DNA of 64,000 nt. It comes from Arenicola marina (Eukaryota > Annelida > Polychaeta > Arenicolidae). The notes beneath the pieces were generated by a model. The model saw nothing but the letters and a program-made list of their open reading frames with translations, did no database searches and was not told where the DNA came from. Within the stretch, counting starts at the first letter, position 1. Every line of letters begins with the position of its first letter. The translations under genes were made by a program, and so were the position numbers. The stretch spans positions 4,836,001 through 4,900,000 of the forward strand of contig OZ025255.1 of the NCBI GenBank assembly GCA_964019135.1, read 5' to 3'. Below, piece after piece: positions 91-64,000 of this stretch.

Positions 91-99
91 TGACGTCAG
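90..99. promoter_or_regulatory. CRE-like palindrome, one per monomer (example)
   Basis: CTGACGTCAG is a perfect 10-bp palindrome that contains TGACGTCA, the full consensus cAMP-response element bound by CREB/ATF and related bZIP proteins. It recurs every 36 bp through the window except in variant units such as TGGCGTCA, TGATGTCA, TGTCGTCA, TGCCGTCA and CGACGTCA. The match is seen directly; binding or any regulatory role is inference, since short motifs in satellites often occur by chance and are then amplified. Confidence 0.55.
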
Positions 100-684: not shown

Positions 685-755
685 TACAATGTGTCACCGC
701 CCTGACGTCAGACTACATGTACAATGTGTCACCGCTATGACGTCAGTACTACATG
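685..755 (+). repeat. Segment boundary: 35-bp unit plus TATGACG unit (type example)
   Basis: Bases 685-719 form a 35-bp unit lacking one T (GTCAGACTAC at 707-716). The next unit, 720-755, reads CCGCTATGACG where other units read CCGCCCTGACG. This pair recurs 35 times; the TATGACG units begin at the starts of segments S1 to S35 below. Eight of the 35 carry CCGTTATGACG instead (units at 4425, 5719, 11583, 15325, 23203, 33062, 42707 and 62534). The shared lesion points to one ancestral deletion that was then amplified with its neighbours. Confidence 0.95.
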
Positions 756-1618
756 TACAATGTGTCACCGCCCTGACGTCAGTACTACATGTACAACGTG
801 TCACCGCCCTGACGTCAGTACTACATGTACACTGTGTCACCGCCCTGACGTCAGTACTACATGTACAATGTGTCACCGCCCTGACGTCAGTACTACATGT
901 ACACTGTGTCACCGCCCTGACGTCAGTACTGCATGTACAAGGTGTCACCGCCCTGACGTCAGTACTGCATGTACACTGTGTCACCGCCCTGACGTCAGTA
1001 CTACATGTACACTGTGTCACCGCCCCGACGTCAGTACTACATGTACACTGTGTCACCGCCCTGACGTCAGTACTACATGTACACTGTGTCAACGCCCTGA
1101 CGTCAGTACTACATGTACACTGTGTCACCGCCCTGACGTCAGTACTACATGTACAATGTGTCACCGCCCTGACGTCAGTACTATATGCACACTGTGTCAC
1201 CGCCCTGACGTCAGTACTACATGTACACTGTGTCACCGCCCTGACGTCAGTACTACATGTACACTGTGTCACCGCCCTGACGTCAGTACTACATGTACAC
1301 TGTGTCACCGCCCTGACGTCAGTACTACATGTACAATGTGTCACCGCCCTGATGTCAGTACTGCATGTACACTGTGTCAACGCCCTGATGTCAGTACTAC
1401 ATGCACTCTGTGTCACCGCCCTGACGTCAGTACTGTATGTACACTGTGTCACCGCCCTGACGTCAGTACTACATGTACAAGGTGCCACCGCCCTGTCGTC
1501 AGTACTACATGTACACTGTGTCACCGCCCTGACGTCAGTACTATATGTACACTGTGTCACCGCCCTGACGTCAGTACTACATGTACAATGTGTCACCGCC
1601 CTGACGTCAGACTACATG
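720..1618. repeat. S1: T3 segment, 25 units
   Basis: It is 899 bp long and follows a T2 tail. The head is the CCGCTATGACG unit, then units with ACAATG, ACAACG, ACACTG and ACAATG, then a GCATGTACAAGG unit. The tail carries two GATGTCAG units, ATGCACTCTG at about 1402, and the T3 signature GTGCCACCGCCCTGTCGTC at about 1481-1499. S20, S24 and S27 have the same length and landmarks. Confidence 0.8.
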
Positions 1619-2985
1619 TACAATGTGTCACCGCTATGACGTCAGTACTACATGTACAATGTGTCACCGCCCTGACGTCAGTACTACATGTACAACGTGT
1701 CACCGCCCTGACGTCAGTACTACATGTACACTGTGTCACCGCCCTGACGTCAGTACTACATGTACAATGTGTCACCGCCCTGACGTCAGTCCTACATGTA
1801 CAATGTGTCACCGCCCTGACGTCAGTACTGCATGTACAAGGTGTCACCGCCCTGACGTCAGTACTACATGTACACTGTGTCACCGCCCTGACGTCAGTAC
1901 TACATGTACAATGTGTCACCGCCCTGACGTCAGTACTACATGTACAATGTGTCACCGCCCTGACGTCAGTACTGCATGTACAAGGTGTCACCGTCCTGAC
2001 GTCAGTACTACATGTACAATGTGTCACCGCCCTGACGTCAATACTACATGTACACTGTATCACCACCCTGACGTCAGTACTACATGTACACTGTGTCACC
2101 GCCCTGACGTCAGTACTACATGTACAATGTGTCACCGCCCTGACGTCAGTACTACATGTACAAGGTGTCACCGCCCTGACGTCAGTACTACATGTACACT
2201 GTGTCACCGCCCTGACGTCAGTACTGCATGTACACTGTGTCACCGCCCTGACGTCAGTACTACATGTACACTGTGTCACCGCCCTGACGTCAGTACTACA
2301 TGTACAATGTGTCACCGCCCTGACGTCAGTACTACATGTACACACTGTCACCGACCTGACGTCAGTACTACATGTACAATGCGTCACCGCCCTGACGTCA
2401 GTACTACATTTACACTGTGTCACCGCCTTAACGTCAGTACAATATGTACAATGTGTCACCGCCCTGACGTCAGTACTACATGTACACTGTGTCACCGCCC
2501 TGACGTCAGTACTGCATGTACAACGTGTCATCGCCCCAACGTCAGTACTACATGTACAAGGTGTCACCGCCCTGTCGTCAGTACTACATGTACAAGCTGT
2601 CACCGCCCTGACGTCAGTACTACATGTACACTGTGTCACCGCCCTGGCGTCAGTACTACATGTACAAGAAGTCACCGCCCTGACGTCAGTACTACATGTA
2701 CACAGTGTCATCGCCCTGACGTCAGTACTAAATGTACAATGTGTCGCCGCCCTGACGTCAGTACTACATGTACACTGTGTCACCGCCCTGACGTCAGTAC
2801 CACATGTACACTGTGTCACCGCCCTGACGTCAGTACTACATGTACAAGGTGCCACCGCCCTGTCGTCAGTACTACATGTACACTGTGTCACCGCCCTGAC
2901 GTCAGTACTATATGTACACTGTGTCACCGCCCTGACGTCAGTACTACATGTACAATGTGTCACCGCCCTGACGTCAGACTACATG
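1619..2985. repeat. S2: T4 head joined to T3 tail, 38 units
   Basis: The head has the T4 marker GTCCTACATG (about 1789). The middle carries the T4 cluster AATGCGTCAC, ACATTTACAC, CCTTAACGTC and GTACAATATG (about 2378-2445). It ends with the T3 tail GTGCCACCGCCCTGTCGTC (about 2849), so it is a T4/T3 hybrid made by exchange. It is followed by another T4 head. Confidence 0.75.
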
Positions 2986-4424
2986 TACAATGTGTCACCG
3001 CTATGACGTCAGTACTACATGTACAATGTGTCACCGCCCTGACGTCAGTACTACATGTACAACGTGTCACCGCCCTGACGTCAGTACTACATGTACACTG
3101 TGTCACCGCCCTGACGTCAGTACTACATGTACAATGTGTCACCGCCCTGACGTCAGTCCTACATGTACAATGTGTCACCGCCCTGACGTCAGTACTGCAT
3201 GTACAAGGTGTCACCGCCCTGACGTCAGTACTACATGTACACTGTGTCACCGCCCTGACGTCAGTACTACATGTACAATGTGTCACCGCCCTGACGTCAG
3301 TACTACATGTACAATGTGTCACCGCCCTGACGTCAGTACTGCATGTACAAGGTGTCACCGTCCTGACGTCAGTACTACATGTACAATGTGTCACCGCCCT
3401 GACGTCAATACTAAATGTACACTGTATCACCACCCTGACGTCAGTACTACATGTACACTGTGTCACCGCCCTGACGTCAGTACTACATGTACAATGTGTC
3501 ACCGCCCTGACGTCAGTACTACATGTACAAGGTGTCACCGCCCTGACGTCAGTACTACATGTACACTGTGTCACCGCCCTGACGTCAGTACTGCATGTAC
3601 ACTGTGTCACCGCCCTGACGTCAGTACTACATGTACACTGTGTCACCGCCCTGACGTCAGTACTACATGTACAATGTGTCACCGCCCTGACGTCAGTACT
3701 ACATGTACACACTGTCACCGCCCTGACGTCAGTACTACATGTACAATGCGTCACCGCCCTGACGTCAGTACTACATTTACACTGTGTCACCGCCTTAACG
3801 TCAGTACAATATGTACAATGTGTCACCGCAATGACGTCAGTACTACATGTACACTGTGTCACCGCCCTGACGTCAGTACTGCATGTACAACGTGTCATCG
3901 CCCCAACGTCAGTACTACATGTACAAGGTGTCACCGCCCTGTCGTCAGTACTACATGTACAAGCTGTCACCGCCCTGACGTCAGTACTACATGTACACTG
4001 TGTCACCGCCCTGGCGTCAGTACTACATGTACAAGAAGTCACCGCCCTGACGTCAGTACTACATGTACACAGTGTCATCGCCCTGACGTCAGTACTAAAT
4101 GTACAATGTGTCGCCGCCCTGACGTCAGTACTACATGTACACTGTGTCACCGCCCTGACGTCAGTACCACATGTACACTGTGTCACCGCCCTGACGTCAG
4201 TACTACATGTACAATGTGTCACCGCCCTGACGTCAGTACTACATGTACACTGTGTCACCGCCCTGACGTCAGTACCACATGTACACTGTGTCACCGCCCT
4301 GACGTCAGTACTACATGTACAATGTGTCACCGCCCTGACGTCAGTACTACATGTACAATGTGTCACCGCCCTGACGTCAGTACTACATGTACAATGTGTC
4401 ACCGCCCTGACGTCAGACTACATG
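2986..4424. repeat. S3: T4 segment, 40 units
   Basis: A complete T4 segment of 1,439 bp, the same length as S9 and S17. It has the GTCCTACATG head and the AATGCGTCAC to GTACAATATG cluster, and it ends with the T4 tail of three successive ACAATG units. Private changes are CCGCAATGACG at about 3825, which resembles the boundary TATGACG unit, and ACTAAATGTACACTGTATC near 3410. Confidence 0.8.
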
Positions 4425-5359
4425 TACAATGTGTCACCGTTATGACGTCAGTACTACATGTACAATGTGTCACCGCCCTGACGTCAGTACTACATGTACA
4501 ACGTGTCACCGCCCTGACGTCAGTACTACATGTACACTGTGTCACCGCCCTGACGTCAGTACTACATGTACAATGTGTCACCGCCCTGACGTCAGTACTA
4601 TATGCACACTGTGTCACCGCCCCGACGTCAGTACTACATGTACACTGTGTCACCGCCCTGACGTCAGTACTACATGTACACTGTGTCACCGCCCCGACGT
4701 CGGTACTACATGTACACTGTGTCACCGCCCTGACGTCAGTACTACATGTACACTGTGTCACCGCCCTGACGTCAGTACTACATGTACACTGTGTCACCGC
4801 CCTGACGTCAGTACTACATGTACACTGTGTCACCGCCCCGACGTCAGTACTACATGTACACTGTGTCACCGCCCTGACGTCAGTACTACATGTACACTGT
4901 GTCACCGCCCCGACGTCAGTACTACATGTACACTGTGTCACCGCCCTGACGTCAGTACTACATGTACACTGTGTCACCGCCCTGACGTCAGTACTACATG
5001 TACACTGTGTCACCGCCCTGACGTCAGTACTACATGTACACTGTGTCACCGCCCTGACGTCAGTACTACATGTACAATGTGTCACCGCCCTGATGTCAGT
5101 ACTGCATGTACACTGTGTCACCGCCCTGATGTCAGTACTACATGTACTCTGTGTCACCGCCCTGACGTCAGTACTGTATGTACACTGTGTCACCGCCCTG
5201 ACGTCAGTACTACATGTACAAGGTGTCACCGCCCTGACGTCAGTACTACATGTACACTGTGTCACCGCCCTGACGTCAGTACTATATGTACACTGTGTCA
5301 CCGCCCTGACGTCAGTACTACATGTACAATGTGTCACCGCCCTGACGTCAGACTACATG
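4425..5359. repeat. S4: T1 head joined to T2 tail, 26 units
   Basis: It opens with the T1-type CCGTTATGACG unit, but after about four units it switches to T2 content. That content includes TATATGCACAC at about 4600, GACGTCGGTAC at about 4696 and alternating CCCCGACG units, and it ends with the T2 tail. From about 4550 it matches sequence 56,815 bp downstream in S33. Confidence 0.75.
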
Positions 5360-5718
5360 TACAATGTGTCACCGCTATGACGTCAGTACTACATGTACAA
5401 TGTGTCACCGCCCTGACGTCAGTACTACATGTACAACGTGTCACCGCCCTGACGTCAGTACTACATGTACACTGTGTCACCGCCCTGACGTCAGTACTAC
5501 ATGTACAATGTGTCACCGCCCTGACGTCAGTACTACATGTACAATGTGTCACCGCCCTGACGTCAGTACTACATGTACAAAGTGTCACCGCCCTGTCGTC
5601 AGTACTACATGTACACTGTGTCACCGCCCTGACGTCAGTACTATATGTACACTGTGTCACCGCCCTGACGTCAGTACTACATGTACAATGTGTCACCGCC
5701 CTGACGTCAGACTACATG
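5360..5718. repeat. S5: miniature 10-unit segment
   Basis: At 359 bp this is the joint shortest segment. It has a T3-like head, then an ACAAAGTGTCACC unit with CTGTCGTCAG (about 5577-5598), and a TATATG unit before the closing 35-bp unit. S34 (62175-62533) is its counterpart, of equal length and 56,815 bp away. It probably arose by deletion inside a T3 segment. Confidence 0.8.
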
Positions 5719-7949
5719 TACAATGTGTCACCGTTATGACGTCAGTACTACATGTACAATGTGTCACCGCCCTGACGTCAGTACTACATGTACAACGTGT
5801 CACCGCCCTGACGTCAGTACTACATGTACACTGTGTGACCGCCCTGACGTCAGTACTACATGTACAATGTGTCACCGCCCTGACGTCAGTACTACATGTA
5901 CAATGTGTCACCGCCCTGACGTCAGTACTGCATGTACAAGGTGTCACCGCCCTGACGTCAGTACTACATGTACACTGTGTCACCGCCCTGCCGTCAGTAC
6001 TACATGTACAATGTGTCACCGCCCTGACGTCAGTACTACATGTACAATGTGTCACCGCCCTGACGTCAGTACTGCATGTACAAGGTGTCACCGCCCTGAC
6101 GTCAGTACTACATGTACAATGTGTCACCGCCCTGACGTCAATACTACATGTACACTGTATCACCACCCTGACGTCAGTACTACATGTACACTGTGTCACC
6201 GCCCTGACGTCAGTACTACATGTACAATGTGTCACCGCCCTGACGTCAGTACTACATGTACAAGGTGTCACCGCCCTGACGTCAGTACTACATGTACACT
6301 GTGTCACCGCCCTGACGTCAGTACTGCATGTACACTGTGTCACCGCCCTGACGTCAGTACTACATGTACACTGTGTCACCGCCCTGACGTCAGTACTACA
6401 TGTACAATGTGTCACCGCCCTGACGTCAGTACTACATGTACACTCTGTCACCGCCCTGACGTCAGTACTACATGTACAATGCGTCACCGCCCTGACGTCA
6501 GTACTACATTTACACTGTGTCACCGCCTTGACGTCAGTACAATATGTACAATGTGTCACCGCCCTGACGTCAGTACTACATGTACACTGTGTCACCGCCC
6601 TGACGTCAGTACTGCATGTACAACGTGTCATCGCCCCAACGTCCATACTACATGTACAAGGTGTCACCGCCCTGTCGTCAGTACTACATGTACAAGCTGT
6701 CACCGCCCTGACGTCAGTACTACATGTACACTGTGTCACCGCCCTGGCGTCAGTACTACATGTACAAGAAGTCACCGCCCTGACGTCAGTACTACATGTA
6801 CACAGTGTCATCGCCCTGACGTCAGTACTACATGTACAATGTGTCGCCGCCCTGACGTCAGTACTACATGTACACTGTGTCACCGCCCTGACGTCAGTAC
6901 CACATGTACACTGTGTCACCGCCCTGACGTCAGTACTACATGTACAATGTGTCACCGCCCTGACGTCAGTACTACATGTACAATGTGTCACCGCCCTGAC
7001 GTCAGTACTACATGTACACTGTGTCACCGCCCTGACGTCAGTACTACATATACAATGTGCCACCGCCCTGACGTCAGTACTACATGTACAATGTGTCACC
7101 GCCCTGACGTCAGTACTACATGTACATTGTGTCACCGCCCTGACGTCAGTACTACATGTACACTGTGTCACCGCCCTGACGTCAGTACCACATGTACAAT
7201 GTGTCACCGCCCTGACGTCAGTACTACATGTACATTGTGTCACCGCCCTGACGTCAGTACTACATGTACAATGTGTCACCGCCCTGACGTCAGTACCACA
7301 TGTACACTGTGTCACCGCCCTGACGTCAGTACTACATGTACAATGTGTCACCGCCCTGACGTCAGTACTACATGTACAAGTTGTCACCGACCTGACGTCA
7401 GTACTACATGTACACTGTGTCACCGCCCTGACGTCAGTACTACATGTACACTGTGTCACCGCCCTGGCGTCAGTACTACATGTACACTGTGTCACCGCCC
7501 TGGCGTCAGTACTACATGTACACTGTGTCACCGCCCTGGCGTCAGTACTACATGTACAAGTTGTCACCGACCTGACGTCAGTACTACATGTACACTGTGT
7601 CACCGCCCTGGCGTCAGTACTACATGTACACTGTGTCACCGCCCTGGCGTCAGTACTACATGTACACTGTGTCACCGCCCTGACGTCAGTACTACATGTA
7701 CACTGTGTCACAGCCCTGACGTCAGTACTACATGTACAATGTGTCACCGCCCTGACGTCAGTACTACATGTACACTGTGTCAAAGCCCTGGCGTCAGTAC
7801 TACATGTACACTGTGTCACCGCCCTGACGTCAGTACTACATGTACAAGGTGTCACCGCCCCGACGTCAGTACTACATGTGCAAGATGTCACCGCCCTGAT
7901 GTCAGTACTACATGTACACTGTGTCACCGCCCTGACGTCAGACTACATG
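5719..7949. repeat. S6: T1 segment, 62 units
   Basis: The longest intact T1 segment (2,231 bp). It opens with CCGTTATGACG, then carries CTGCCGTCAG (about 5988), AATGCGTCAC to GTACAATATG (about 6478-6546), ACATATACAATGTGCC (about 7046) and two TTGTCACCGACCTG units 180 bp apart (7381 and 7561). TGGCGTCAG units follow, and the tail has TGTGCAAGATGTC (about 7877) and GATGTCAG. Private variants TGTGTGACCG (about 5834) and AACGTCCATAC (about 6638) recur only in S35. Confidence 0.85.
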
Positions 7950-9172
7950 TACAATGTGTCACCGCTATGACGTCAGTACTACATGTACAATGTGTCACCG
8001 CCCTGACGTCAGTACTACATGTACAAGGTGTCACCGCCCTGGCGTCAGTACTACATGTACAATGTGTCACCGCCCTGACGTCAGTACTACATGTACACTG
8101 TGTCACCGCCCTGACGTCAGTACTATATGCACACTGTGTCACCGCCCTGACGTCAGTACTACATGTACAATGTGTCACCGCCCTGACGTCAGTACTGCAT
8201 GTACAAGGTGTCACCGCCTTGACGTCAGTACTACATGTACACTGTGTCACCGCCCTGACGTCAGTACTACATGTACACTGTGTCACCGCCCCGACGTCAG
8301 TACTACATGTACACTGTGTCACCGCCCTGACGTCAGTACTACATGTACACTGTGTCACCGCCCTGACGTCAGTACTATATGTACACTGTGTCACCGCCCT
8401 GACGTCAGTACTACATGTACACTGTGTCACCGCCCTGACGTCAGTACTATATGTACACTGTGTCACCGCCCCGACGTCAGTACTACATGTACACTGTGTC
8501 ACCGCCCTGACGTCAGTACTGCATGTACACTGTGTCACCGCCCTGACGTCAGTACTACATGTACACTGTGTCACCGCCCCGACGTCAGTACTACATGTAC
8601 ACTGTGTCACCGCCCTGACGTCAGTACTACATGTACACTGTGTCAACGCCCTGACGTCAGTACTACATGTACACTGTGTCACCGCCCTGACGTCAGTACT
8701 ACATGTACAATGTGTCACCGCCCTGACGTCAGTACTATATGCACACTGTGTCACCGCCCTGACGTCAGTACTACATGTACACTGTGTCACCGCCCTGACG
8801 TCAGTACTACATGTACACTGTGTCACCGCCCTGACGTCAGTACTACATGTACACTGTGTCACCGCCCTGACGTCAGTACTACATGTACAATGTGTCACCG
8901 CCCTGATGTCAGTACTGCATGTACACTGTGTCACCGCCCTGATGTCAGTACTACATGTACTCTGTGTCACCGCCCTGACGTCAGTACTGTATGTACACTG
9001 TGTCACCGCCCTGACGTCAGTACTACATGTACAAGGTGTCACCGCCCTGACGTCAGTACTACATGTACACTGTGTCACCGCCCTGACGTCAGTACTATAT
9101 GTACACTGTGTCACCGCCCTGACGTCAGTACTACATGTACAATGTGTCACCGCCCTGACGTCAGACTACATG
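7950..9172. repeat. S7: T2 segment, 34 units
   Basis: It follows a T1 tail. The T2 head is ACAATG, then ACAAGG with TGGCGTCAG (about 8039), then TATATGCACAC and a CCTTGACG unit. The tail has two GATGTCAG units, TACTCTG (about 8959) and an ACAAGG unit followed by normal units. S19 is the same length and order. Confidence 0.85.
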
Positions 9173-10143
9173 TACAATGTGTCACCGCTATGACGTCAGT
9201 ACTACATGTACAATGTGTCACCGCCCTGACGTCAGTACTACATGTACAACGTGTCACCGCCCTGACGTCAGTACTACATGTACACTGTGTCACCGCCCTG
9301 ACGTCAGTACTACATGTACAATGTGTCACCGCCCTGACGTCAGTACTACATGTACACTGTGTCACCGCCCTGACGTCAGTACTGCATGTACAAGGTGTCA
9401 CCGCCCTGACGTCAGTACTGCATGTACACTGTGTCACCGCCCTGACGTCAGTACTACATGTACACTGTGTCACCGCCCCGACGTCAGTACTACATGTACA
9501 CTGTGTCACCGCCCTGACGTCAGTACTACATGTACACTGTGTCAACGCCCTGACGTCAGTACTACATGTACACTGTGTCACCGCCCTGACGTCAGTACTA
9601 CATGTACACTGTGTCACCGCCCTGACGTCAGTACTACATGTACACTGTGTCACCGCCCTGACGTCAGTACTACATGTACACTGTGTCACCGCCCTGACGT
9701 CAGTACTACATGTACACTGTGTCACCGCCCTGACGTCAGTACTACATGTACACTGTGTCACCGCCCTGACGTCAGTACTACATGTACACTGTGTCACCGC
9801 CCTGACGTCAGTACTACATGTACACTGTGTCACCGCCCTGACGTCAGTACTACATGTACAATGTGTCACCGCCCTGATGTCAGTACTGCATGTACACTGT
9901 GTCACCGCCCTGATGTCAGTACTACATGCACTCTGTGTCACCGCCCTGACGTCAGTACTGTATGTACACTGTGTCACCGCCCTGACGTCAGTACTACATG
10001 TACAAGGTGCCACCGCCCTGTCGTCAGTACTACATGTACACTGTGTCACCGCCCTGACGTCAGTACTATATGTACACTGTGTCACCGCCCTGACGTCAGT
10101 ACTACATGTACAATGTGTCACCGCCCTGACGTCAGACTACATG
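9173..10143. repeat. S8: T3 segment, 27 units
   Basis: 971 bp, two units longer than S1 and equal in length to S14 and S16. It has a run of nine ACACTG units near 9550-9850, a paired GATGTCAG marker, ATGCACTCTG (about 9927) and the GTGCCACCGCCCTGTCGTC tail (about 10007). Confidence 0.85.
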
Positions 10144-11582
10144 TACAATGTGTCACCGCTATGACGTCAGTACTACATGTACAATGTGTCACCGCCCTGA
10201 CGTCAGTACTACATGTACAACGTGTCACCGCCCTGACGTCAGTACTACATGTACACTGTGTCACCGCCCTGACGTCAGTACTACATGTACAATGTGTCAC
10301 CGCCCTGACGTCAGTCCTACATGTACAATGTGTCACCGCCCTGACGTCAGTATGGCATGTACAAGGTGTCACCGCCCTGACGTCAGTACTACATGTACAC
10401 TGTGTCACCGCCCTGACGTCAGTACTACATGTACAATGTGTCACCGCCCTGACGTCAGTACTACATGTACAATGTGTCACCGCCCTGACGTCAGTACTGC
10501 ATGTACAAGGTGTCACCGTCCTGACGTCAGTACTACATGTACAATGTGTCACCGCCCTGACGTCAATACTACATGTACACTGTATCACCACCCTGACGTC
10601 AGTACTACATGTACACTGTGTCACCGCCCTGACGTCAGTACTACATGTACAATGTGTCACCGCCCTGACGTCAGTACTACATGTACAAGGTGTCACCGCC
10701 CTGACGTCAGTACTACATGTACACTGTGTCACCGCCCTGACGTCAGTACTGCATGTACACTGTGTCACCGCCCTGACGTCAGTACTACATGTACACTGTG
10801 TCACCGCCCTGACGTCAGTACTACATGTACAATGTGTCACCGCCCTGACGTCAGTACTACATGTACACACTGTCACCATCCTGACGTCAGTACTACATGT
10901 ACAATGCGTCACCGCCCTGACGTCAGTACTACATTTACACTGTGTCACCGCCTTAACGTCAGTACAATATGTACAATGTGTCACCGCCCTGACGTCAGTA
11001 CTACATGTACACTGTGTCACCGCCCTGACGTCAGTACTGCATGTACAACGTGTCATCGCCCCAACGTCAGTACTACATGTACAAGGTGTCACCGCCCTGT
11101 CGTCAGTACTACATGTACAAGCTGTCACCGCCCTGACGTCAGTACTACATGTACACTGTGTCACCGCCCTGGCGTCAGTACTACATGTACAAGAAGTCAC
11201 CGCCCTGACGTCAGTACTACATGTACACAGTGTCATCGCCCTGACGTCAGTACTAAATGTACAATGTGTCGCCGCCCTGACGTCAGTACTACATGTACAC
11301 TGTGTCACCGCCCTGACGTCAGTACCACATGTACACTGTGTCACCGCCCTGACGTCAGTACTACATGTACAATGTGTCACCGCCCTGACGTCAGTACTAC
11401 ATGTACACTGTGTCACCGCCCTGACGTCAGTACCACATGTACACTGTGTCACCGCCCTGACGTCAGTACTACATGTACAATGTGTCACCGCCCTGACGTC
11501 AGTACTACATGTACAATGTGTCACCGCCCTGACGTCAGTACTACATGTACAATGTGTCACCGCCCTGACGTCAGACTACATG
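10144..11582. repeat. S9: T4 segment, 40 units, closing the cleanest super-repeat
   Basis: It has the GTCCTACATG head, the CACCATCCTG variant (about 10874), the AATGCGTCAC to GTACAATATG cluster and the T4 tail of three ACAATG units. With S6 to S8 it completes a T1-T2-T3-T4 super-repeat of 5,864 bp. A private variant CAGTATGGCATG lies at about 10348. Confidence 0.85.
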
Positions 11583-13705
11583 TACAATGTGTCACCGTTA
11601 TGACGTCAGTACTACATGTACAATGTGTCACCGCCCTGACGTCAGTACTACATGTACAACGTGTCACCGCCCTGACGTCAGTACTACATGTACACTGTGT
11701 CACCGCCCTGACGTCAGTACTACATGTACAATGTGTCACCGCCCTGACGTCAGTACTACATGTACAATGTGTCACCGCCCTGACGTCAGTACTGCATGTA
11801 CAAGGTGTCACCGCCCTGACGTCAGTACTACATGTACACTGTGTCACCGCCCTGCCGTCAGTACTACATGTACAATGTGTCACCGCCCTGACGTCAGTAC
11901 TACATGTACAATGTGTCACCGCCCTGACGTCAGTACTGCATGTACAAGGTGTCACCGCCCTGACGTCAGTACTACATGTACAATGTGTCACCGCCCTGAC
12001 GTCAATACTACATGTACACTGTATCACCACCCTGACGTCAGTACTACATGTACACTGTGTCACCGCCCTGACGTCAGTACTACATGTACAATGTGTCACC
12101 GCCCTGACGTCAGTACTACATGTACAAGGTGTCACCGCCCTGACGTCAGTACTACATGTACACTGTGTCACCGCCCTGACGTCAGTACTGCATGTACACA
12201 GTGTCACCGCCCTGACGTCAGTACTACATGTACACTGTGTCACCGCCCTGACGTCAGTACTACATGTACAATGTGTCACCGCCCTGACGTCACTACTACA
12301 TGTACACTCTGTCACCGCCCTGACGTCAGTACTACATGTACAATGCGTCACCGCCCTGACGTCAGTACTACATTTACACTGTGTCACCGCCTTGACGTCA
12401 GTACAATATGTACAATGTGTCACCGCCCTGACGTCAGTACTACATGTACACTGTGTCACCGCCCTGACGTCAGTACTGCATGTACAACGTGTCATCGCCC
12501 CAACGTCAGTACTACATGTACAAGGTGTCACCGCCCTGTCGTCAGTACTACATGTACAAGCTGTCACCGCCCTGACGTCAGTACTACATGTACACTGTGT
12601 CACCGCCCTGGCGTCAGTACTACATGTACAAGAAGTCACCGCCCTGACGTCAGTACTACATGTACACAGCGTCATCGCCCTGACGTCAGTACTACATGTA
12701 CAATGTGTCGCCGCCCTGACGTCAGTACTACATGTACACTGTGTCACCGCCCTGACGTCAGTACCACATGTACACTGTGTCACCGCCCTGACGTCAGTAC
12801 TACATGTACAATGTGTCACCGCCCTGACGTCAGTACTACATGTACACTGTGTCACCGCCCTGACGTCAGTACTACATGTACACTGTGTCACCGCCCTGAC
12901 GTCAGTACTACATATACAATGTGCCACCGCCCTGACGTCAGTACTACATGTACAATGTGTCACCGCCCTGACGTCAGTACTACATGTACATTGTGTCACC
13001 GCCCTGACGTCAGTACTACATGTACACTGTGTCACCGCCCTGACGTCAGTACCACATGTACAATGTGTCACCGCCCTGACGTCAGTACTACATGTACATT
13101 GTGTCACCGCCCTGACGTCAGTACTACATGTACAATGTGTCACCGCCCTGACGTCAGTACCACATGTACACTGTGTCACCGCCCTGACGTCAGTACTACA
13201 TGTACAATGTGTCACCGCCCTGACGTCAGTACTACATGTACAAGTTGTCACCGACCTGACGTCAGTACTACATGTACACTGTGTCACCGCCCTGACGTCA
13301 GTACTACATGTACACTGTGTCACCGCCCTGGCGTCAGTACTACATGTACACTGTGTCACCGCCCTGGCGTCAGTACTACATGTACACTGTGTCACCGCCC
13401 TGGCGTCAGTACTACATGTACAAGTTGTCACCGACCTGACGTCAGTACTACATGTACACTGTGTCACCGCCCTGGCGTCAGTACTACATGTACACTGTGT
13501 CACCGCCCTGGCGTCAGTACTACATGTACACTGTGTCAAAGCCCTGGCGTCAGTACTACATGTACACTGTGTCACCGCCCTGACGTCAGTACTACATGTA
13601 CAAGGTGTCACCGCCCCGACGTCAGTACTACATGTGCAAGATGTCACCGCCCTGATGTCAGTACTACATGTACACTGTGTCACCGCCCTGACGTCAGACT
13701 ACATG
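11583..13705. repeat. S10: T1 segment, 59 units
   Basis: A T1 segment three units shorter than S6. It carries GTCACTACTAC (about 12289) and GCATGTACACAG (about 12189), both shared with S12 at an offset of exactly 3,742 bp. By eye it differs from S12 by very few bases, one being ACAGCGTCATC at about 12665. Confidence 0.85.
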
Positions 13706-49000: not shown

Positions 49001-49975
49001 CATGTACATTGTGTCACCGCCCTGACGTCAGTACTACATGTACACTGTGTCACCGCCCTGACGTCAGTACTACATGTACAATGTGTCACCGCCCTGACGT
49101 CAGTACTACATGTACACTGTGTCACCGCCCTGACGTCAGTACTACATGTACAATGTGTCACCGCCCTGACGTCAGTACCACATGTACACTGTGTCACCGC
49201 CCTGACGTCAGTACTACATGTACAATGTGTCACCGCCCTGACGTCAGTACTACATGTACACTGTGTCACCGCCCTGACGTCAGTACTACATGTACAATGT
49301 GTCACCGCCCTGACGTCAGTACTACATGTACACTGTGTCACCGCCCTGACGTCAGTACTACATGTACACTGTGTCACCGCCCTGACGTCAGTACTACATG
49401 TACACTGTGTCACCGCCCTGACGTCAGTACTACATGTACAAGGTGTCACCGCCCTGACGTCAGTACTACATGTACACTGTGTCACCGCCTTGACGTCAGT
49501 ACTACATGTACACTGTGTCACCGCCCTGACGTCAGTACTACATGTACAAGTTGTCACCGACCTGACGTCAGTACTACATGTACACTGTGTCACCGCCCTG
49601 ACGTCAGTACTACATGTACAAGGTGTCACCGCCCTGACGTCAGTACTACATGTACACTGTGTCACCGCCTTGACGTCAGTACTACATGTACACTGTGTCA
49701 CCGCCCTGACGTCAGTACTACATGTACAATGTGTCACCGCCCTGACGTCAGTACCACATGTACACTGTGTCACCGCCCTGACGTCAGTACTACATGTACA
49801 CTGTGTCAAAGCCCTGGCGTCAGTACTACATGTACACTGTGTCACCGCCCTGACGTCAGTACTACATGTACAAGGTGTCACCGCCCCGACGTCAGTACTA
49901 CATGTGCAAGATGTCACCGCCCTGATGTCAGTACTACATGTACACTGTGTCACCGCCCTGACGTCAGACTACATG
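46089..49975. repeat. S28: extended T4 with T1 tail, 108 units
   Basis: It has a T4 head and body, then the same expansion as S22 (ACATTG units at 47601 and 48141, 540 bp apart, and a third at 49005). CCTTGACG and TTGTCACCGACCTG units follow near 49.5 kb, and it ends with the T1 tail TGTGCAAGATGTC (about 49902). It is therefore followed by a T2 head, as the order rule predicts. Confidence 0.8.
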
Positions 49976-52900: not shown

Positions 52901-53682
52901 TCACCGCCCTGACGTCAGTACTACATGTACACTGTGTCACCGCCCTGACGTCAGTACTACATGTACACTGTATCACCGCCCTGACGTCAGTACTACATGT
53001 ACACTGTGTCACCGCCCTGACGTCAGTACTACATGTACACTGTGTCACCGCCCTGGCGTCAGTACTACATGTACACTGTGTCACCGCCCTGACGTCAGTA
53101 CTACATATACAAGGTGTCACAGCCCTGGCGTCGGTACTACATGTACACTGTGTCACCGCCCTGACGTCAGTACTACATGTACAACGTGTCACCGCCCTGA
53201 CGTCAGTACTACATGTACAATGTGTCACCGCCCTGACGTCAGTACTACATGTACAATGTGTCACCGCCCTGACGTCAGTACTATATGCACACTGTGTCAC
53301 CGCCCTGACGTCAGTACTACATGTACACTGTGTCACCGCCCTGGCGTCAGTACTACATGTACACTGTGTCACCGCCCTGGCGTCAGTACTACATGTACAC
53401 TGTGTCACCGCCCTGACGTCAGTACTACATGTACACTGTGTCACAGCCCTGACGTCAGTACTACATGTACAATGTGTCACCGCCCTGACGTCAGTACTAC
53501 ATGTACACTGTGTCAAAGCCCTGGCGTCAGTACTACATGTACACTGTGTCACCGCCCTGACGTCAGTACTACATGTACAAGGTGTCACCGCCCCGACGTC
53601 AGTACTACATGTGCAAGATGTCACCGCCCTGATGTCAGTACTACATGTACACTGTGTCACCGCCCTGACGTCAGACTACATG
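49976..53682. repeat. S29: T2 head, T5 block, T1 tail, 103 units
   Basis: It is T2 up to about 51.0 kb, then a T5 block of CACAGCCCTG, TTGTCACCGACCTG, TGGCGTCAG and CGCCTGGACG units. The block has a 108-bp period (51171 and 51279) nested in a 792-bp period (51171 and 51963). It ends in a T1 tail. A private GGCGTCGGTAC lies at about 53127. Confidence 0.8.
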
Positions 53683-55193
53683 TACAATGTGTCACCGCTA
53701 TGACGTCAGTACTACATGTACAATGTGTCACCGCCCTGACGTCAGTACTACATGTACAAGGTGTCACCGCCCTGGCGTCAGTACTACATGTACAATGTGT
53801 CACCGCCCTGACGTCAGTACTACATGTACAATGTGTCACCGCCCTGACGTCAGTACTACATGTACAATGTGTCACCGCCCTGACGTCAGTACTGCATGTA
53901 CAAGGTGTCACCGCCTTGACGTCAGTACTACATGTACACTGTGTCACCGCCCTGACGTCAGTACTACATGTACACTGTGTCACCGCCCCGACGTCAGTAC
54001 TACATGTACACTGTGTCACCGCCCTGACGTCAGTACTACATGTACACTGTGTCACCGCCCTGACGTCAGTACTATATGTACACTGTGTCACCGCCCTGAC
54101 GTCAGTACTACATGTACACTGTGTCACCGCCCTGACGTCAATACTATATGTACACTGTGTCACCGCCCGGACGTCAGTACTACATGTACACTGTGTCACC
54201 GCCCTGACGTCAGTACTGCATGTACACTGTGTCACCGCCCTGACGTCAGTACTACATGTACACTGTGTCACCGCCCCGACGTCAGTACTACATGTACACT
54301 GTGTCACCGCCCTGACGTCAGTACTACATGTACACTGTGTCAACGCCCTGACGTCAGTACTACATGTACACTGTGTCACCGCCCTGACGTCAGTACTACA
54401 TGTACAATGTGTCACCGCCCTGACGTCAGTACTATATGCACACTGTGTCACCGCCCCGACGTCAGTACTACATGTACACTGTGTCACCGCCCTGACGTCA
54501 GTACTACATGTACACTGTGTCACCGCCCCGACGTCGGTACTACATGTACACTGTGTCACCGCCCTGACGTCAGTACTACATGTACACTGTGTCACCGCCC
54601 TGACGTCAGTACTACATGTACACTGTGTCACCGCCCTGACGTCAGTACTACATGTACACTGTGTCACCGCCCCGACGTCAGTACTACATGTACACTGTGT
54701 CACCGCCCTGACGTCAGTACTACATGTACACTGTGTCACCGCCCCGACGTCAGTACTACATGTACACTGTGTCACCGCCCTGACGTCAGTACTACATGTA
54801 CACTGTGTCACCGCCCTGACGTCAGTACTACATGTACACTGTGTCACCGCCCTGACGTCAGTACTACATGTACACTGTGTCACCGCCCTGACGTCAGTAC
54901 TACATGTACAATGTGTCACCGCCCTGATGTCAGTACTGCATGTACACTGTGTCACCGCCCTGATGTCAGTACTACATGTACTCTGTGTCACCGCCCTGAC
55001 GTCAGTACTGTATGTACACTGTGTCACCGCCCTGACGTCAGTACTACATGTACAAGGTGTCACCGCCCTGACGTCAGTACTACATGTACACTGTGTCACC
55101 GCCCTGACGTCAGTACTATATGTACACTGTGTCACCGCCCTGACGTCAGTACTACATGTACAATGTGTCACCGCCCTGACGTCAGACTACATG
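53683..55193. repeat. S30: long T2 segment, 42 units
   Basis: It has a T2 head with three ACAATG units, GTCAATACTATATG (about 54137), GCCCGGACG (about 54165), GACGTCGGTAC (about 54532) and the T2 tail. S33 has the same length and landmarks at an offset of 6,981 bp. Confidence 0.85.
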
Positions 55194-58072
55194 TACAATG
55201 TGTCACCGCTATGACGTCAGTACTACATGTACAATGTGTCACCGCCCTGACGTCAGTACTACATGTACACTGTGTCACCGCCCTGACGTCAGTACTACAT
55301 GTACACTGTGTCACCGCCCTGACGTCAGTACTACATGTACAAGTTGTCACCGACCTGACGTCAGTACTACATGTACACTGTGTCACCGCCCTGACGTCAG
55401 TACTACATGTACAATGTGTCACAGCCCTGACGTCAGTACTACATGTACAAGGTGTCACCGCCCTGACGTCAGTACTACATGTACACTGTGTCACCGCCCT
55501 GACGTCAGTACTACATGTACAATGTGTCACAGCCCTGACGTCAGTACTACATGTACAAGGTGTCACCGCCCTGACGTCAGTACTACATGTACACTGTGTC
55601 ACCGCCCTGGCGTCAGTACTACATGTACACTGTGTCACCGCCCTGACGTCAGTACTACATGTACACTGTGTCACCGCCCTGACGTCAGTACTACATGTAC
55701 AAGTTGTCACCGACCTGACGTCAGTACTACATGTACACTGTGTCACCGCCCTGACGTCAGTACTACATGTACAATGTGTCACAGCCCTGACGTCAGTACT
55801 ACATGTACAAGTTGTCACCGACCTGACGTCAGTACTACATGTACACTGTGTCACGGCCCTGACGTCAGTACTACATGTACACTGTGTCACCGCCCTGACG
55901 TCAGTACTACATGTACACTGTGTCACCGCCCTGACGTCAGTACTACATGTACACTGTGTCACCGCCTGGACGTCAGTACTACATGTACACTGTGTCACCG
56001 CCCTGGCGTCAGTACTACATGTACAATGTGTCACCGCCCTGGCGTCAGTACTACATGTACACTGTGTCACCGCCCTGACGTCAGTACTACATGTACACTG
56101 TGTCACCGCCCTGACGTCAGTACTACATGTACAAGTTGTCACCGACCTGACGTCAGTACTACATGTACACTGTGTCACCGCCCTGACGTCAGTACTACAT
56201 GTACAATGTGTCACAGCCCTGACGTCAGTACTACATGTACAAGGTGTCACCGCCCTGACGTCAGTACTACATGTACACTGTGTCACCGCCCTGACGTCAG
56301 TACTACATGTACAATGTGTCACAGCCCTGACGTCAGTACTACATGTACAAGGTGTCACCGCCCTGACGTCAGTACTACATGTACACTGTGTCACCGCCCT
56401 GGCGTCAGTACTACATGTACACTGTGTCACCGCCCTGACGTCAGTACTACATGTACACTGTGTCACCGCCTGGACGTCAGTACTACATGTACACTGTGTC
56501 ACCGCCCTGGCGTCAGTACTACATGTACAATGTGTCACCGCCCTGGCGTCAGTACTACATGTACACTGTGTCACCGCCCTGGCGTCAGTACTACATGTAC
56601 ACTGTGTCACCGCCCTGACGTCAGTACTACATGTACACTGTGTCACCGCCCTGACGTCAGTACTACATGTACACTGTGTCACCGCCCTGGCGTCAGTACT
56701 ACATGTACACTGTGTCACCGCCCTGGCGTCAGTACTACATGTACAAGTTGTCACCGACCTGACGTCAGTACTACATGTACACTGTGTCACCGCCCTGGCG
56801 TCAGTACTACATGTACACTGTGTCACCGCCCTGGCGTCAGTACAACATGTACACTGTGTCACCGCCCTGGCGTCAGTACTACATGTACAAGTTGTCACCG
56901 ACCTGACGTCAGTACTGCATGTACACTGTGTCACCGCCCTGACGTCAGTACTACATGTACAATGTGTCACCGCCCTGACGTCAGTACTACATGTACACTG
57001 TGTCACAGCCCTGACGTCAGTACTACATGTACAAGGTGTCACCGCCCCGACGTCAGTACTACATGTGCAAGATGTCACCGCCCTGACGTCAGTACTACAT
57101 GTACACTGTGTCACCGCCCTGGCGTCAGTACTACATGTACACTGTGTCACCGCCCTGACGTCAGTACTACATGTACACTGTGTCACCGCCCTGACGTCAG
57201 TACTACATGTACACTGTATCACCGCCCTGACGTCAGTACTACATGTACACTGTGTCACCGCCCTGACGTCAGTACTACATGTACACTGTGTCACCGCCCT
57301 GGCGTCAGTACTACATGTACACTGTGTCACCGCCCTGACGTCAGTACTACATATACAAGGTGTCACAGCCCTGGCGTCAGTACTACATGTACACTGTGTC
57401 ACCGCCCTGACGTCAGTACTACATGTACAACGTGTCACCGCCCTGACGTCAGTACTACATGTACACTGTGTCACCGCCCTGGCGTCAGTACTACATGTAC
57501 ACTGTGTCACCGCCCTGACGTCAGTACTACATGTACACTGTGTCACCGCCTGGACGTCAGTACTACATGTACACTGTGTCACCGCCCTGGCGTCAGTACT
57601 ACATGTACAATGTGTCACCGCCCTGGCGTCAGTACTACATGTACACTGTGTCAACGCCCTGACGTCAGTACTACATGTACACTGTGTCACCGCCCTGACG
57701 TCAGTACTACATGTACAATGTGTCACCGCCCTGACGTCAGTACTATATGCACACTGTGTCACCGCCCCGACGTCAGTACTACATGTACACTGTGTCACCG
57801 CCCTGACGTCAGTACTACATGTACACTGTGTCACCGCCCCGACGTCGGTACTACATGTACACTGTGTCACCGCCCTGACGTCAGTACTACATGTACACTG
57901 TGTCACCGCCCTGACGTCAGTACTACATGTACACTGTGTCACCGCCCTGACGTCAGTACTACATGTACACTGTGTCACCGCCCCGACGTCAGTACTACAT
58001 GTACACTGTGTCACCGCCCTGACGTCAGTACTACATGTACAATGTGTCACCGCCCTGACGTCAGACTACATG
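55194..58072. repeat. S31: T5 segment, 80 units
   Basis: The head differs from all other types except S32: ACAATG, two ACACTG units, then TTGTCACCGACCTG. The body copies the T5 block of S29 (offset 4,246 bp, measured at CGCCTGGACG), including the 108-bp and 792-bp periods. From about 57.65 kb it changes to T2-like CCCCGACG units, ending in an unusual short tail. Confidence 0.8.
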
Positions 58073-60663
58073 TACAATGTGTCACCGCTATGACGTCAGT
58101 ACTACATGTACAATGTGTCACCGCCCTGACGTCAGTACTACATGTACACTGTGTCACCGCCCTGACGTCAGTACTACATGTACACTGTGTCACCGCCCTG
58201 ACGTCAGTACTACATGTACAAGTTGTCACCGACCTGACGTCAGTACTACATGTACACTGTGTCACCGCCCTGACGTCAGTACTACATGTACAATGTGTCA
58301 CAGCCCTGACGTCAGTACTACATGTACAAGGTGTCACCGCCCTGACGTCAGTACTACATGTACACTGTGTCACCGCCCTGACGTCAGTACTACATGTACA
58401 ATGTGTCACAGCCCTGACGTCAGTACTACATGTACAAGGTGTCACCGCCCTGACGTCAGTACTACATGTACACTGTGTCACCGCCCTGGCGTCAGTACTA
58501 CATGTACACTGTGTCACCGCCCTGACGTCAGTACTACATGTACACTGTGTCACCGCCCTGACGTCAGTACTACATGTACAATGTGTCACAGCCCTGACGT
58601 CAGTACTACATGTACAAGTTGTCACCGACCTGACGTCAGTACTACATGTACACTGTGTCACGGCCCTGACGTCAGTACTACATGTACACTGTGTCACCGC
58701 CCTGACGTCAGTACTACATGTACACTGTGTCACCGCCCTGACGTCAGTACTACATGTACACTGTGTCACCGCCTGGACGTCAGTACTACATGTACACTGT
58801 GTCACCGCCCTGGCGTCAGTACTACATGTACAATGTGTCACCGCCCTGGCGTCAGTACTACATGTACACTGTGTCACCGCCCTGACGTCAGTACTACATG
58901 TACACTGTGTCACCGCCCTGACGTCAGTACTACATGTACAAGTTGTCACCGACCTGACGTCAGTACTACATGTACACTGTGTCACCGCCCTGACGTCAGT
59001 ACTACATGTACAATGTGTCACAGCCCTGACGTCAGTACTACATGTACAAGGTGTCACCGCCCTGACGTCAGTACTACATGTACACTGTGTCACCGCCCTG
59101 ACGTCAGTACTACATGTACAATGTGTCACAGCCCTGACGTCAGTACTACATGTACAAGGTGTCACCGCCCTGACGTCAGTACTACATGTACACTGTGTCA
59201 CCGCCCTGGCGTCAGTACTACATGTACACTGTGTCACCGCCCTGACGTCAGTACTACATGTACACTGTGTCACCGCCTGGACGTCAGTACTACATGTACA
59301 CTGTGTCACCGCCCTGGCGTCAGTACTACATGTACAATGTGTCACCGCCCTGGCGTCAGTACTACATGTACACTGTGTCACCGCCCTGGCGTCAGTACTA
59401 CATGTACACTGTGTCACCGCCCTGACGTCAGTACTACATGTACACTGTGTCACCGCCCTGACGTCAGTACTACATGTACACTGTGTCACCGCCCTGGCGT
59501 CAGTACTACATGTACACTGTGTCACCGCCCTGGCGTCAGTACTACATGTACAAGTTGTCACCGACCTGACGTCAGTACTACATGTACACTGTGTCACCGC
59601 CCTGGCGTCAGTACTACATGTACACTGTGTCACCGCCCTGGCGTCAGTACAACATGTACACTGTGTCACCGCCCTGGCGTCAGTACTACATGTACAAGTT
59701 GTCACCGACCTGACGTCAGTACTGCATGTACACTGTGTCACCGCCCTGACGTCAGTACTACATGTACAATGTGTCACCGCCCTGACGTCAGTACTACATG
59801 TACACTGTGTCACAGCCCTGACGTCAGTACTACATGTACAAGGTGTCATCGCCCCGACGTCAGTACTACATGTGCAAGATGTCACCGCCCTGACGTCAGT
59901 ACTACATGTACACTGTGTCACCGCCCTGGCGTCAGTACTACATGTACACTGTGTCACCGCCCTGACGTCAGTACTACATGTACACTGTGTCACCGCCCTG
60001 ACGTCAGTACTACATGTACACTGTATCACCGCCCTGACGTCAGTACTACATGTACACTGTGTCACCGCCCTGACGTCAGTACTACATGTACACTGTGTCA
60101 CCGCCCTGGCGTCAGTACTACATGTACACTGTGTCACCGCCCTGACGTCAGTACTACATATACAAGGTGTCACAGCCCTGGCGTCAGTACTACATGTACA
60201 CTGTGTCACCGCCCTGACGTCAGTACTACATGTACAACGTGTCACCGCCCTGACGTCAGTACTATATGCACACTGTGTCACCGCCCTGACGTCAGTACTA
60301 CATGTACACTGTGTCACCGCCCTGGCGTCAGTACTACATGTACACTGTGTCACCGCCCTGGCGTCAGTACTACATGTACACTGTGTCACCGCCCTGACGT
60401 CAGTACTACATGTACACTGTGTCACAGCCCTGACGTCAGTACTACATGTACAATGTGTCACCGCCCTGACGTCAGTACTACATGTACACTGTGTCAAAGC
60501 CCTGGCGTCAGTACTACATGTACACTGTGTCACCGCCCTGACGTCAGTACTACATGTACAAGGTGTCACCGCCCCGACGTCAGTACTACATGTGCAAGAT
60601 GTCACCGCCCTGATGTCAGTACTACATGTACACTGTGTCACCGCCCTGACGTCAGACTACATG
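58073..60663. repeat. S32: T5 segment with T1 tail, 72 units
   Basis: It has the same head and body as S31 at an offset of 2,807 bp after an early two-unit loss, so the 792-bp period becomes 720 bp (58296 and 59016). It ends in the T1 tail TGTGCAAGATGTC (about 60594), followed by a T2 head. CATCGCCCCG at about 59847 is a private change. Confidence 0.8.
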
Positions 60664-62174
60664 TACAATGTGTCACCGCTATGACGTCAGTACTACATGT
60701 ACAATGTGTCACCGCCCTGACGTCAGTACTACATGTACAAGGTGTCACCGCCCTGGCGTCAGTACTACATGTACAATGTGTCACCGCCCTGACGTCAGTA
60801 CTACATGTACAATGTGTCACCGCCCTGACGTCAGTACTACATGTACAATGTGTCACCGCCCTGACGTCAGTACTGCATGTACAAGGTGTCACCGCCTTGA
60901 CGTCAGTACTACATGTACACTGTGTCACCGCCCTGACGTCAGTACTACATGTACACTGTGTCACCGCCCCGACGTCAGTACTACATGTACACTGTGTCAC
61001 CGCCCTGACGTCAGTACTACATGTACACTGTGTCACCGCCCTGACGTCAGTACTATATGTACACTGTGTCACCGCCCTGACGTCAGTACTACATGTACAC
61101 TGTGTCACCGCCCTGACGTCAATACTATATGTACACTGTGTCACCGCCCGGACGTCAGTACTACATGTACACTGTGTCACCGCCCTGACGTCAGTACTGC
61201 ATGTACACTGTGTCACCGCCCTGACGTCAGTACTACATGTACACTGTGTCACCGCCCCGACGTCAGTACTACATGTACACTGTGTCACCGCCCTGACGTC
61301 AGTACTACATGTACACTGTGTCAACGCCCTGACGTCAGTACTACATGTACACTGTGTCACCGCCCTGACGTCAGTACTACATGTACAATGTGTCACCGCC
61401 CTGACGTCAGTACTATATGCACACTGTGTCACCGCCCCGACGTCAGTACTACATGTACACTGTGTCACCGCCCTGACGTCAGTACTACATGTACACTGTG
61501 TCACCGCCCCGACGTCGGTACTACATGTACACTGTGTCACCGCCCTGACGTCAGTACTACATGTACACTGTGTCACCGCCCTGACGTCAGTACTACATGT
61601 ACACTGTGTCACCGCCCTGACGTCAGTACTACATGTACACTGTGTCACCGCCCCGACGTCAGTACTACATGTACACTGTGTCACCGCCCTGACGTCAGTA
61701 CTACATGTACACTGTGTCACCGCCCCGACGTCAGTACTACATGTACACTGTGTCACCGCCCTGACGTCAGTACTACATGTACACTGTGTCACCGCCCTGA
61801 CGTCAGTACTACATGTACACTGTGTCACCGCCCTGACGTCAGTACTACATGTACACTGTGTCACCGCCCTGACGTCAGTACTACATGTACAATGTGTCAC
61901 CGCCCTGATGTCAGTACTGCATGTACACTGTGTCACCGCCCTGATGTCAGTACTACATGTACTCTGTGTCACCGCCCTGACGTCAGTACTGTATGTACAC
62001 TGTGTCACCGCCCTGACGTCAGTACTACATGTACAAGGTGTCACCGCCCTGACGTCAGTACTACATGTACACTGTGTCACCGCCCTGACGTCAGTACTAT
62101 ATGTACACTGTGTCACCGCCCTGACGTCAGTGCTACATGTACAATGTGTCACCGCCCTGACGTCAGACTACATG
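60664..62174. repeat. S33: long T2 segment, 42 units, copy of S30
   Basis: 1,511 bp, same as S30. From about 61.36 kb it also matches S4 at an offset of 56,815 bp, including TATATGCACAC (61416) and GACGTCGGTAC (about 61511). One clear difference from S4 is CAGTGCTACATG at about 62129. Confidence 0.85.
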
Positions 62175-62533
62175 TACAATGTGTCACCGCTATGACGTCA
62201 GTACTACATGTACAATGTGTCACCGCCCTGACGTCAGTACTACATGTACAACGTGTCACCGCCCTGACGTCAGTACTACATGTACACTGTGTCACCGCCC
62301 TGACGTCAGTACTACATGTACAATGTGTCACCGCCCTGACGTCAGTACTACATGTACAATGTGTCACCGCCCTGACGTCAGTACTACATGTACAAAGTGT
62401 CACCGCCCTGTCGTCAGTACTACATGTACACTGTGTCACCGCCCTGACGTCAGTACTATATGTACACTGTGTCACCGCCCTGACGTCAGTACTACATGTA
62501 CAATGTGTCACCGCCCTGACGTCAGACTACATG
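62175..62533. repeat. S34: miniature 10-unit segment, copy of S5
   Basis: 359 bp, with the ACAAAGTGTCACC and CTGTCGTCAG pair, in the same order as S5 and 56,815 bp from it. Confidence 0.85.
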
Positions 62534-64000
62534 TACAATGTGTCACCGTTATGACGTCAGTACTACATGTACAATGTGTCACCGCCCTGACGTCAGTACT
62601 ACATGTACAACGTGTCACCGCCCTGACGTCAGTACTACATGTACACTGTGTGACCGCCCTGACGTCAGTACTACATGTACAATGTGTCACCGCCCTGACG
62701 TCAGTACTACATGTACAATGTGTCACCGCCCTGACGTCAGTACTGCATGTACAAGGTGTCACCGCCCTGACGTCAGTACTACATGTACACTGTGTCACCG
62801 CCCTGCCGTCAGTACTACATGTACAATGTGTCACCGCCCTGACGTCAGTACTACATGTACAATGTGTCACCGCCCTGACGTCAGTACTGCATGTACAAGG
62901 TGTCACCGCCCTGACGTCAGTACTACATGTACAATGTGTCACCGCCCTGACGTCAATACTACATGTACACTGTATCACCACCCTGACGTCAGTACTACAT
63001 GTACACTGTGTCACCGCCCTGACGTCAGTACTACATGTACAATGTGTCACCGCCCTGACGTCAGTACTACATGTACAAGGTGTCACCGCCCTGACGTCAG
63101 TACTACATGTACACTGTGTCACCGCCCTGACGTCAGTACTGCATGTACACTGTGTCACCGCCCTGACGTCAGTACTACATGTACACTGTGTCACCGCCCT
63201 GACGTCAGTACTACATGTACAATGTGTCACCGCCCTGACGTCAGTACTACATGTACACTCTGTCACCGCCCTGACGTCAGTACTACATGTACAATGCGTC
63301 ACCGCCCTGACGTCAGTACTACATTTACACTGTGTCACCGCCTTGACGTCAGTACAATATGTACAATGTGTCACCGCCCTGACGTCAGTACTACATGTAC
63401 ACTGTGTCACCGCCCTGACGTCAGTACTGCATGTACAACGTGTCATCGCCCCAACGTCCATACTACATGTACAAGGTGTCACCGCCCTGTCGTCAGTACT
63501 ACATGTACAAGCTGTCACCGCCCTGACGTCAGTACTACATGTACACTGTGTCACCGCCCTGGCGTCAGTACTACATGTACAAGAAGTCACCGCCCTGACG
63601 TCAGTACTACATGTACACAGTGTCATCGCCCTGACGTCAGTACTACATGTACAATGTGTCGCCGCCCTGACGTCAGTACTACATGTACACTGTGTCACCG
63701 CCCTGACGTCAGTACCACATGTACACTGTGTCACCGCCCTGACGTCAGTACTACATGTACAATGTGTCACCGCCCTGACGTCAGTACTACATGTACAATG
63801 TGTCACCGCCCTGACGTCAGTACTACATGTACACTGTGTCACCGCCCTGACGTCAGTACTACATATACAATGTGCCACCGCCCTGACGTCAGTACTACAT
63901 GTACAATGTGTCACCGCCCTGACGTCAGTACTACATGTACATTGTGTCACCGCCCTGACGTCAGTACTACATGTACACTGTGTCACCGCCCTGACGTCAG
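62534..64000. repeat. S35: T1 segment, first 40.75 units (cut by window edge)
   Basis: It opens with CCGTTATGACG and follows S6 unit by unit at an offset of 56,815 bp. It includes the variants TGTGTGACCG (about 62649) and AACGTCCATAC (about 63453), which occur in no other T1 copy of the window, and ACATATACAATGTGCC at 63861. The segment continues beyond the window. Confidence 0.85.

Follow-up and report, generated by a model that had tools for sequence, protein, structure and literature searches.

A one-base deletion and its linked neighbour very probably spread by block duplication through a 36-bp satellite array of Arenicola marina

The stretch analysed here, 64,000 nucleotides of contig OZ025255.1 from the annelid Arenicola marina (assembly GCA_964019135.1, positions 4,836,001 to 4,900,000; hereafter the window), consists of a 36-bp satellite in which a unit that lacks one T recurs together with an altered right-hand neighbour. 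When the full 64,000 bases were aligned cyclically with the 36-bp consensus, 2,451 substitutions (3.8%) and 35 indels were required, and all 35 indels are the same one-base deletion, which we call the lesion. The long head-to-tail succession of near-identical units identifies the sequence as satellite DNA, and it runs past both window ends. The whole array, about 0.93 Mb in a single orientation on one contig of the 867-Mb genome, has a sharp left border at about 4,254,462 (contig coordinates) and a right end between 5,181,000 and 5,190,000. It was read directly at 4,285-4,395 kb, at 4,832-4,904 kb and in short samples; elsewhere its continuity follows from pattern matches. The exact consensus occurs 7,356 times genome-wide on the forward strand and never on the reverse. 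The complete match lists of five patterns fall on this one contig, as do the first 100 consensus places listed; the lists for the lesion and the consensus cover their first 100 places, and other contigs are possible beyond them. Centromeric satellites are bound by the centromeric histone and are commonly shared by most chromosomes.

The window holds 35 exact copies of GTCAGACTAC, the sequence carrying the lesion, and 35 exact copies of TATGACG, the mark of the neighbouring unit; in all 35 cases TATGACG starts 29 bases after the start of GTCAGACTAC (Table 1). Both this count and the spacing rule described in a first-pass annotation of the sequence are borne out within the window, where 34 of 34 distances between successive lesions equal 36n-1, with n from 10 to 174. 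The rule arises because the lesion is the sole indel in 64 kb, so that each interval contains exactly one. It is thus an arithmetic by-product that provides no separate evidence and needs no further cause; what does need explaining is the 35-fold recurrence of one indel with the same neighbour. The same annotation spoke of a single 35-bp unit type. The loss is indeed identical at 35 of 35 sites, but the unit around it comes in two forms, with A at position 5 in 32 and C in 9 of the 41 sites found in the window together with 4 kb of flank at either end. The following unit also varies, reading CTATGACG at 30 of these sites, CTATGACG with one further change at 1 and TTATGACG at 10.

Genome-wide, the lesion occurs at least 401 times on the forward strand and 0 times on the reverse, a lower bound obtained with one fixed flanking form. 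An assembly-wide search for the lesion followed by TATGACG, as suggested in the first-pass annotation for the rest of the assembly, returned 308 matches (with a pattern slightly different from that behind the 401), and no match was obtained for a lesion with an ordinary CCCT unit directly after it. At 87 further places the next unit lacks 18 bases. This subfamily is regional, with 84 copies at 4,423-4,799 kb, 3 at 5,000-5,007 kb and none in the window, and its deletion junction was identical at 19 of 19 sites read, out of 24 such sites among the first 100 places. In this subfamily, which extends over 4423218-5006602, the deleted 18 bases are exactly half a unit beside the lesion, and together the two losses displace the register by one base more than half a unit. 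A second sub-mark, the C>T change that gives TTATGACG, is present in 25 copies, all at 4,833-4,989 kb, a span of 156 kb. Nested marks confined to regions in this way are the expected outcome of descent with regional copying.

Duplicated blocks carry the lesion with them. Long near-identical blocks form 21 pairs in the window; they reach 199 units and hold 0-3 lesions each, and the longest is listed in Table 1. Unit-lag autocorrelation revealed no single fixed higher-order period in the window, the best lag giving 20% identical units against a 12% baseline. With many block lags and lesions 10-174 units apart, the window does not have the form of a higher-order repeat of one fixed period; the array has that of a mosaic in which founder variants were spread by block duplication. 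Across the 41 lesion sites, the lesion unit has a pairwise identity of 0.65 and the +2 unit one of 1.0; the values are 0.47-0.59 at -2, -1, +1 (0.59), +3 and +4, and 0.27 at -3. Farther out it amounts to 0.11 at -40, 0.07 at -30, 0.19 at +30 and 0.08 at +40, compared with a baseline of 0.094. Flank identity falls off in a similar way around other recurrent unit types, for many of them more slowly than around the lesion. The pattern is consistent with an old marker that has several flank haplotypes.

The spacing rule applies only locally: of the 99 spacings between the first 100 listed lesions (4,305-4,599 kb), 57 equal 36n-1 and 42 do not. The 24 spacings that start at an 18-bp-deleted pair leave residue 17 in 18 cases and 16 in 6, because an additional 18 bases have been removed, plus one further base in the six. 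In addition to 18 lesions, a left region of 110 kb holds other recurrent indels: a two-base insertion in 13 copies, single-base losses at column 15 (5 copies) and column 18 (2), a two-base loss at column 15 (2) and compensated pairs (2 and 1), with columns counted from 0. Genome-wide, the insertion pattern occurs 13 times and the column-15 pattern 5 times, all at 4,296-4,387 kb, and a different column-15 loss lies at 5,100,450. The first-pass annotation held that boundaries with unrelated lesions in other parts of the array would contradict it; such lesions exist there in the sense that unrelated recurrent indels do. Its picture of a fixed higher-order punctuation mark is not supported, given these other indel families, the failure of the rule outside the window and the irregular spacing at which 23 other unit types recur too. 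Separately, units at 4293252, 4370509 and 4388364 carry two compensating indels that restore the 36-base length, which suggests that the register is maintained or that short stretches are replaced locally.

We consider it very probable that a single founder haplotype spread by block duplication within the array, a real but ordinary event in a satellite. One unit would have lost a T and its right-hand neighbour would have gained CC>TA on the same stretch of DNA, in either order, and this stretch would then have been copied repeatedly inside larger blocks, tens to about 200 units long, within one array, leaving at least 401 descendants. A single origin of the lesion is the likely starting point, and the copying may have proceeded by unequal exchange or segmental duplication, whether the molecular route was unequal crossing over, replication slippage or conversion-like copying. 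Some descendants would later have acquired the C>T change or, in the neighbouring unit, the 18-bp deletion, and the spread of these marks would have stayed regional. An old founder mutation carried by amplification was among the possibilities raised at first pass, and it is well supported by the linked neighbour change, the nested regional sub-mutations and the flank identity that decays with distance.

Several observations weigh against this account. About 6 lesions have neither known form, and TATGACG occurs without the lesion at 6 places genome-wide; both call for extra events. Five of the latter were read: three share alike surroundings, one lies two units past a lesion pair and one is different again. 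Lesion spacing is also more even than that of 22 of 23 other recurrent unit types and that in 75 of 80 neutral simulations, the coefficient of variation being 0.65, compared with 0.64-2.01 for the other types and 0.64-1.64 (5-95%) in the simulations. Assembly error in the array is excluded only indirectly, from the assembled sequence itself. The remaining points of this kind come from the distribution of block ends.

If the lesion pair were a favoured exchange site, with breaks or strand exchange starting at or beside it, its position at block boundaries would follow, an idea also raised at first pass and one we hold to be very unlikely. The breakpoint test proposed there was carried out by collecting near-identical unit segments on all diagonals across the window and its 4-kb flanks, taking segment ends as breakpoints, and comparing them with rotated lesion positions, 21 control unit types, 80 neutral simulations and a second region. 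At the lesion itself (offsets -1 to +3) breakpoints were not significantly enriched: the hazard at three thresholds was 0.050, 0.046 and 0.053, where the rotated positions gave means of 0.096, 0.065 and 0.044, and the fraction of rotations as high was 0.997, 0.918 and 0.209. Around it there is a signal in the window, where block ends reach 1.49, 1.36 and 1.30 times the rotation mean at offsets -5 to +7 (fractions of rotations as high 0.001, 0.004 and 0.035), with weaker enrichment at -10 to +12 (0.012, 0.010 and 0.026). With the lesion pair masked, the ratio at -5 to +7 is 1.37 (rotation fraction about 0.001), and this adds to the evidence against a purely neutral history, which does not predict the window enrichment, although greater age of the lesion might. 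Of the 21 control types, 3 reached the value of 1.37 by hazard and none by distinct breakpoints; certain controls whose values are raised lie near the lesion themselves. Among the simulations it was reached in 2 by hazard, in 9 by distinct breakpoints and in none of the 80 by both. The two zero counts speak for an exchange site, the 3 controls against it. In the separate left region of 110 kb, whose 18 lesions give less power, the ratios are 0.89 and, by distinct breakpoints, 0.43, with 0.73 and 0.996 of the rotations as high. A further point against an exchange site is that 162 of 257 duplicated blocks enclose a lesion. A recombination hotspot would concentrate breakpoints reproducibly at the element relative to controls, and we found no such reproducible clustering near lesions; a hotspot as the main explanation was rejected when the enrichment around the lesion failed to appear in the second region. 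Part of the window signal may reflect marker age. A narrower version, in which exchange in mid-array is favoured within about 5-10 units of the pair and the one-base register shift steers block copying, we regard as highly unlikely. The simulation itself is crude: 2,000 units, one event-size distribution and parameters set by hand after a first trial, with 80 of 2,493 runs kept (35-50 marker copies). Its median identity is 0.10 against 0.094 in the data, and it yields a median of 230 duplicated blocks against 343, a coverage of 4.1 against about 8 and 210 unit types against 110.

Alternatively, selection might preserve the pair at intervals as a functional higher-order mark, such as a site for protein binding or phasing. 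The abundance of the lesion over about 0.9 Mb, the +2 unit identical at 41 of 41 sites and at 18 of 18 in the left region, and the fairly even spacing, matched by 1 of 23 other unit types, would agree with such a role; however, spacings in the window that span 10 to 174 units, a neighbour without 18 bases in 87 copies and a lesion-free gap of 31 kb in the left region make it, to judge from the sequence, extremely unlikely. Satellite arrays are error-prone in assembly, and the present case is judged from the assembly, so the missing T might be a context-dependent polishing or consensus error. Such an artefact should also strike ordinary units, yet the T is present at its column in 1,735 of 1,778 full window units; nor would it account for the tie of the loss to a two-base change 29 bases away at every window site, the lack of genome-wide matches for a lesion with an ordinary neighbour, or the nested regional variants. 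We think it almost certainly wrong.

Spread of a founder haplotype by block duplication has close parallels. In satellite arrays, single-unit variants expand to other repeats, adjacent units amplify together and homogenisation can be local, according to the excerpted text of PMC5615363, where higher-order and mosaic variation is attributed to unequal crossing over and concerted evolution. Expansion, joint amplification and local homogenisation are equally seen here, whereas the blocks are irregular in length, the window has no fixed higher-order period and the base unit is a short 36 bp. A 1993 study cited in the excerpt of PMC3694981 asked the same question of where array variants exchange; here, the enrichment around the lesion was not reproduced in a second region. 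That excerpt also describes Meloidogyne satellites with CENP-B-box-like motifs, raising the same question of a short motif that promotes array rearrangement. Those motifs sit at monomer junctions of higher-order units, whereas the lesion lies mostly inside duplicated blocks, and a CENP-B-box pattern was not found in the doubled 36-bp unit.

Relatives of the satellite were absent from plasmid records (blastn, 301-base query) and from genome-contig and viral-contig collections (one exact pattern each); the records come from bacteria, archaea, viruses and plasmids and so tell little about animals. The array was likewise not among the literature matches listed for 36-bp satellites, annelid satellites, array turnover and deletion-bearing monomers. 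The satellite is therefore absent from the collections, none of them of animal genomes, and the literature lists searched, while the process itself is standard for satellites as excerpted in PMC5615363.

Some further features of the unit and its surroundings were observed. The consensus contains a 10-bp palindrome, CTGACGTCAG, which includes TGACGTCA, a motif we take to be cAMP response element (CRE)-like, and also the palindromes TACATGTA, AGTACT and TGTACA. Positions 23-25, 34-35 and a few others (1, 3, 4, 11 and 29) vary in only 1-3 of 175 unit types and positions 5-7 in 21 to 78 of the 175; unequal constraint along the unit is possible. Outside the left border, at 4253252-4253440, lies a short tandem repeat of about 30 bp with 5 copies of the octamer TGACGTCA, apart from which it is, by eye, unlike the 36-bp unit. 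To the right of the array, from 5190001 on, lies a different, G-rich tandem repeat whose unit measures about 56 bp by visual count. The mitochondrial contig of the genome carries COX1, and its genes seem to be arranged as ND3-ND2-COX1-COX2-ATP8-COX3, all but COX1 being named by eye from translations; such an arrangement resembles that of annelids.

Table 1. Coordinates of the satellite, the lesion pairs and the longest duplicated block, numbered from the first base of the window
Feature	Position	Strand	Basis
36-bp satellite array, consensus TACACTGTGTCACCGCCCTGACGTCAGTACTACATG, ~1,779 units; inner part of ~0.93 Mb array	1..64000	.	cyclic alignment
Lesion pair 1 (one-base loss GTCAGACTAC through end of TATGACG)	707..742	+	exact match
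Lesion pair 2	1606..1641	+	exact match
Lesion pair 3	2973..3008	+	exact match
Lesion pair 4, TTATGACG subvariant	4412..4447	+	exact match
Lesion pair 5	5347..5382	+	exact match
Lesion pair 6, TTATGACG subvariant	5706..5741	+	exact match
Lesion pair 7, C at unit position 5	7937..7972	+	exact match
Lesion pair 8	9160..9195	+	exact match
Lesion pair 9	10131..10166	+	exact match
Lesion pair 10, TTATGACG subvariant	11570..11605	+	exact match
Lesion pair 11, C at unit position 5	13693..13728	+	exact match
Lesion pair 12, TTATGACG subvariant	15312..15347	+	exact match
Lesion pair 13, C at unit position 5	17435..17470	+	exact match
Lesion pair 14	18586..18621	+	exact match
Lesion pair 15	19557..19592	+	exact match
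Lesion pair 16	20780..20815	+	exact match
Lesion pair 17	21751..21786	+	exact match
Lesion pair 18, TTATGACG subvariant	23190..23225	+	exact match
Lesion pair 19, C at unit position 5	25349..25384	+	exact match
Lesion pair 20, G>T between both marks, unique among 35	26572..26607	+	exact match
Lesion pair 21	27471..27506	+	exact match
Lesion pair 22	29378..29413	+	exact match
Longest duplicated block, 199 units with 3 lesions; second copy at 39144-46304 differs at 7 bases; example of lesion travel	29499..36659	.	block search
Lesion pair 23, TTATGACG subvariant	33049..33084	+	exact match
Lesion pair 24	35532..35567	+	exact match
Lesion pair 25	36431..36466	+	exact match
Lesion pair 26, TTATGACG subvariant	42694..42729	+	exact match
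Lesion pair 27	45177..45212	+	exact match
Lesion pair 28	46076..46111	+	exact match
Lesion pair 29, C at unit position 5	49963..49998	+	exact match
Lesion pair 30, C at unit position 5	53670..53705	+	exact match
Lesion pair 31	55181..55216	+	exact match
Lesion pair 32	58060..58095	+	exact match
Lesion pair 33, C at unit position 5	60651..60686	+	exact match
Lesion pair 34	62162..62197	+	exact match
Lesion pair 35, TTATGACG subvariant	62521..62556	+	exact match

As a signal, the lesion pair is of little importance. Its value is as a natural and clean marker of pedigree: a single deletion and the two marks that later nested within it show, in one assembly, how this array of about 0.93 Mb grew as blocks of tens to about 200 units were copied regionally. 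Models of satellite turnover could be calibrated with the help of such numbers.

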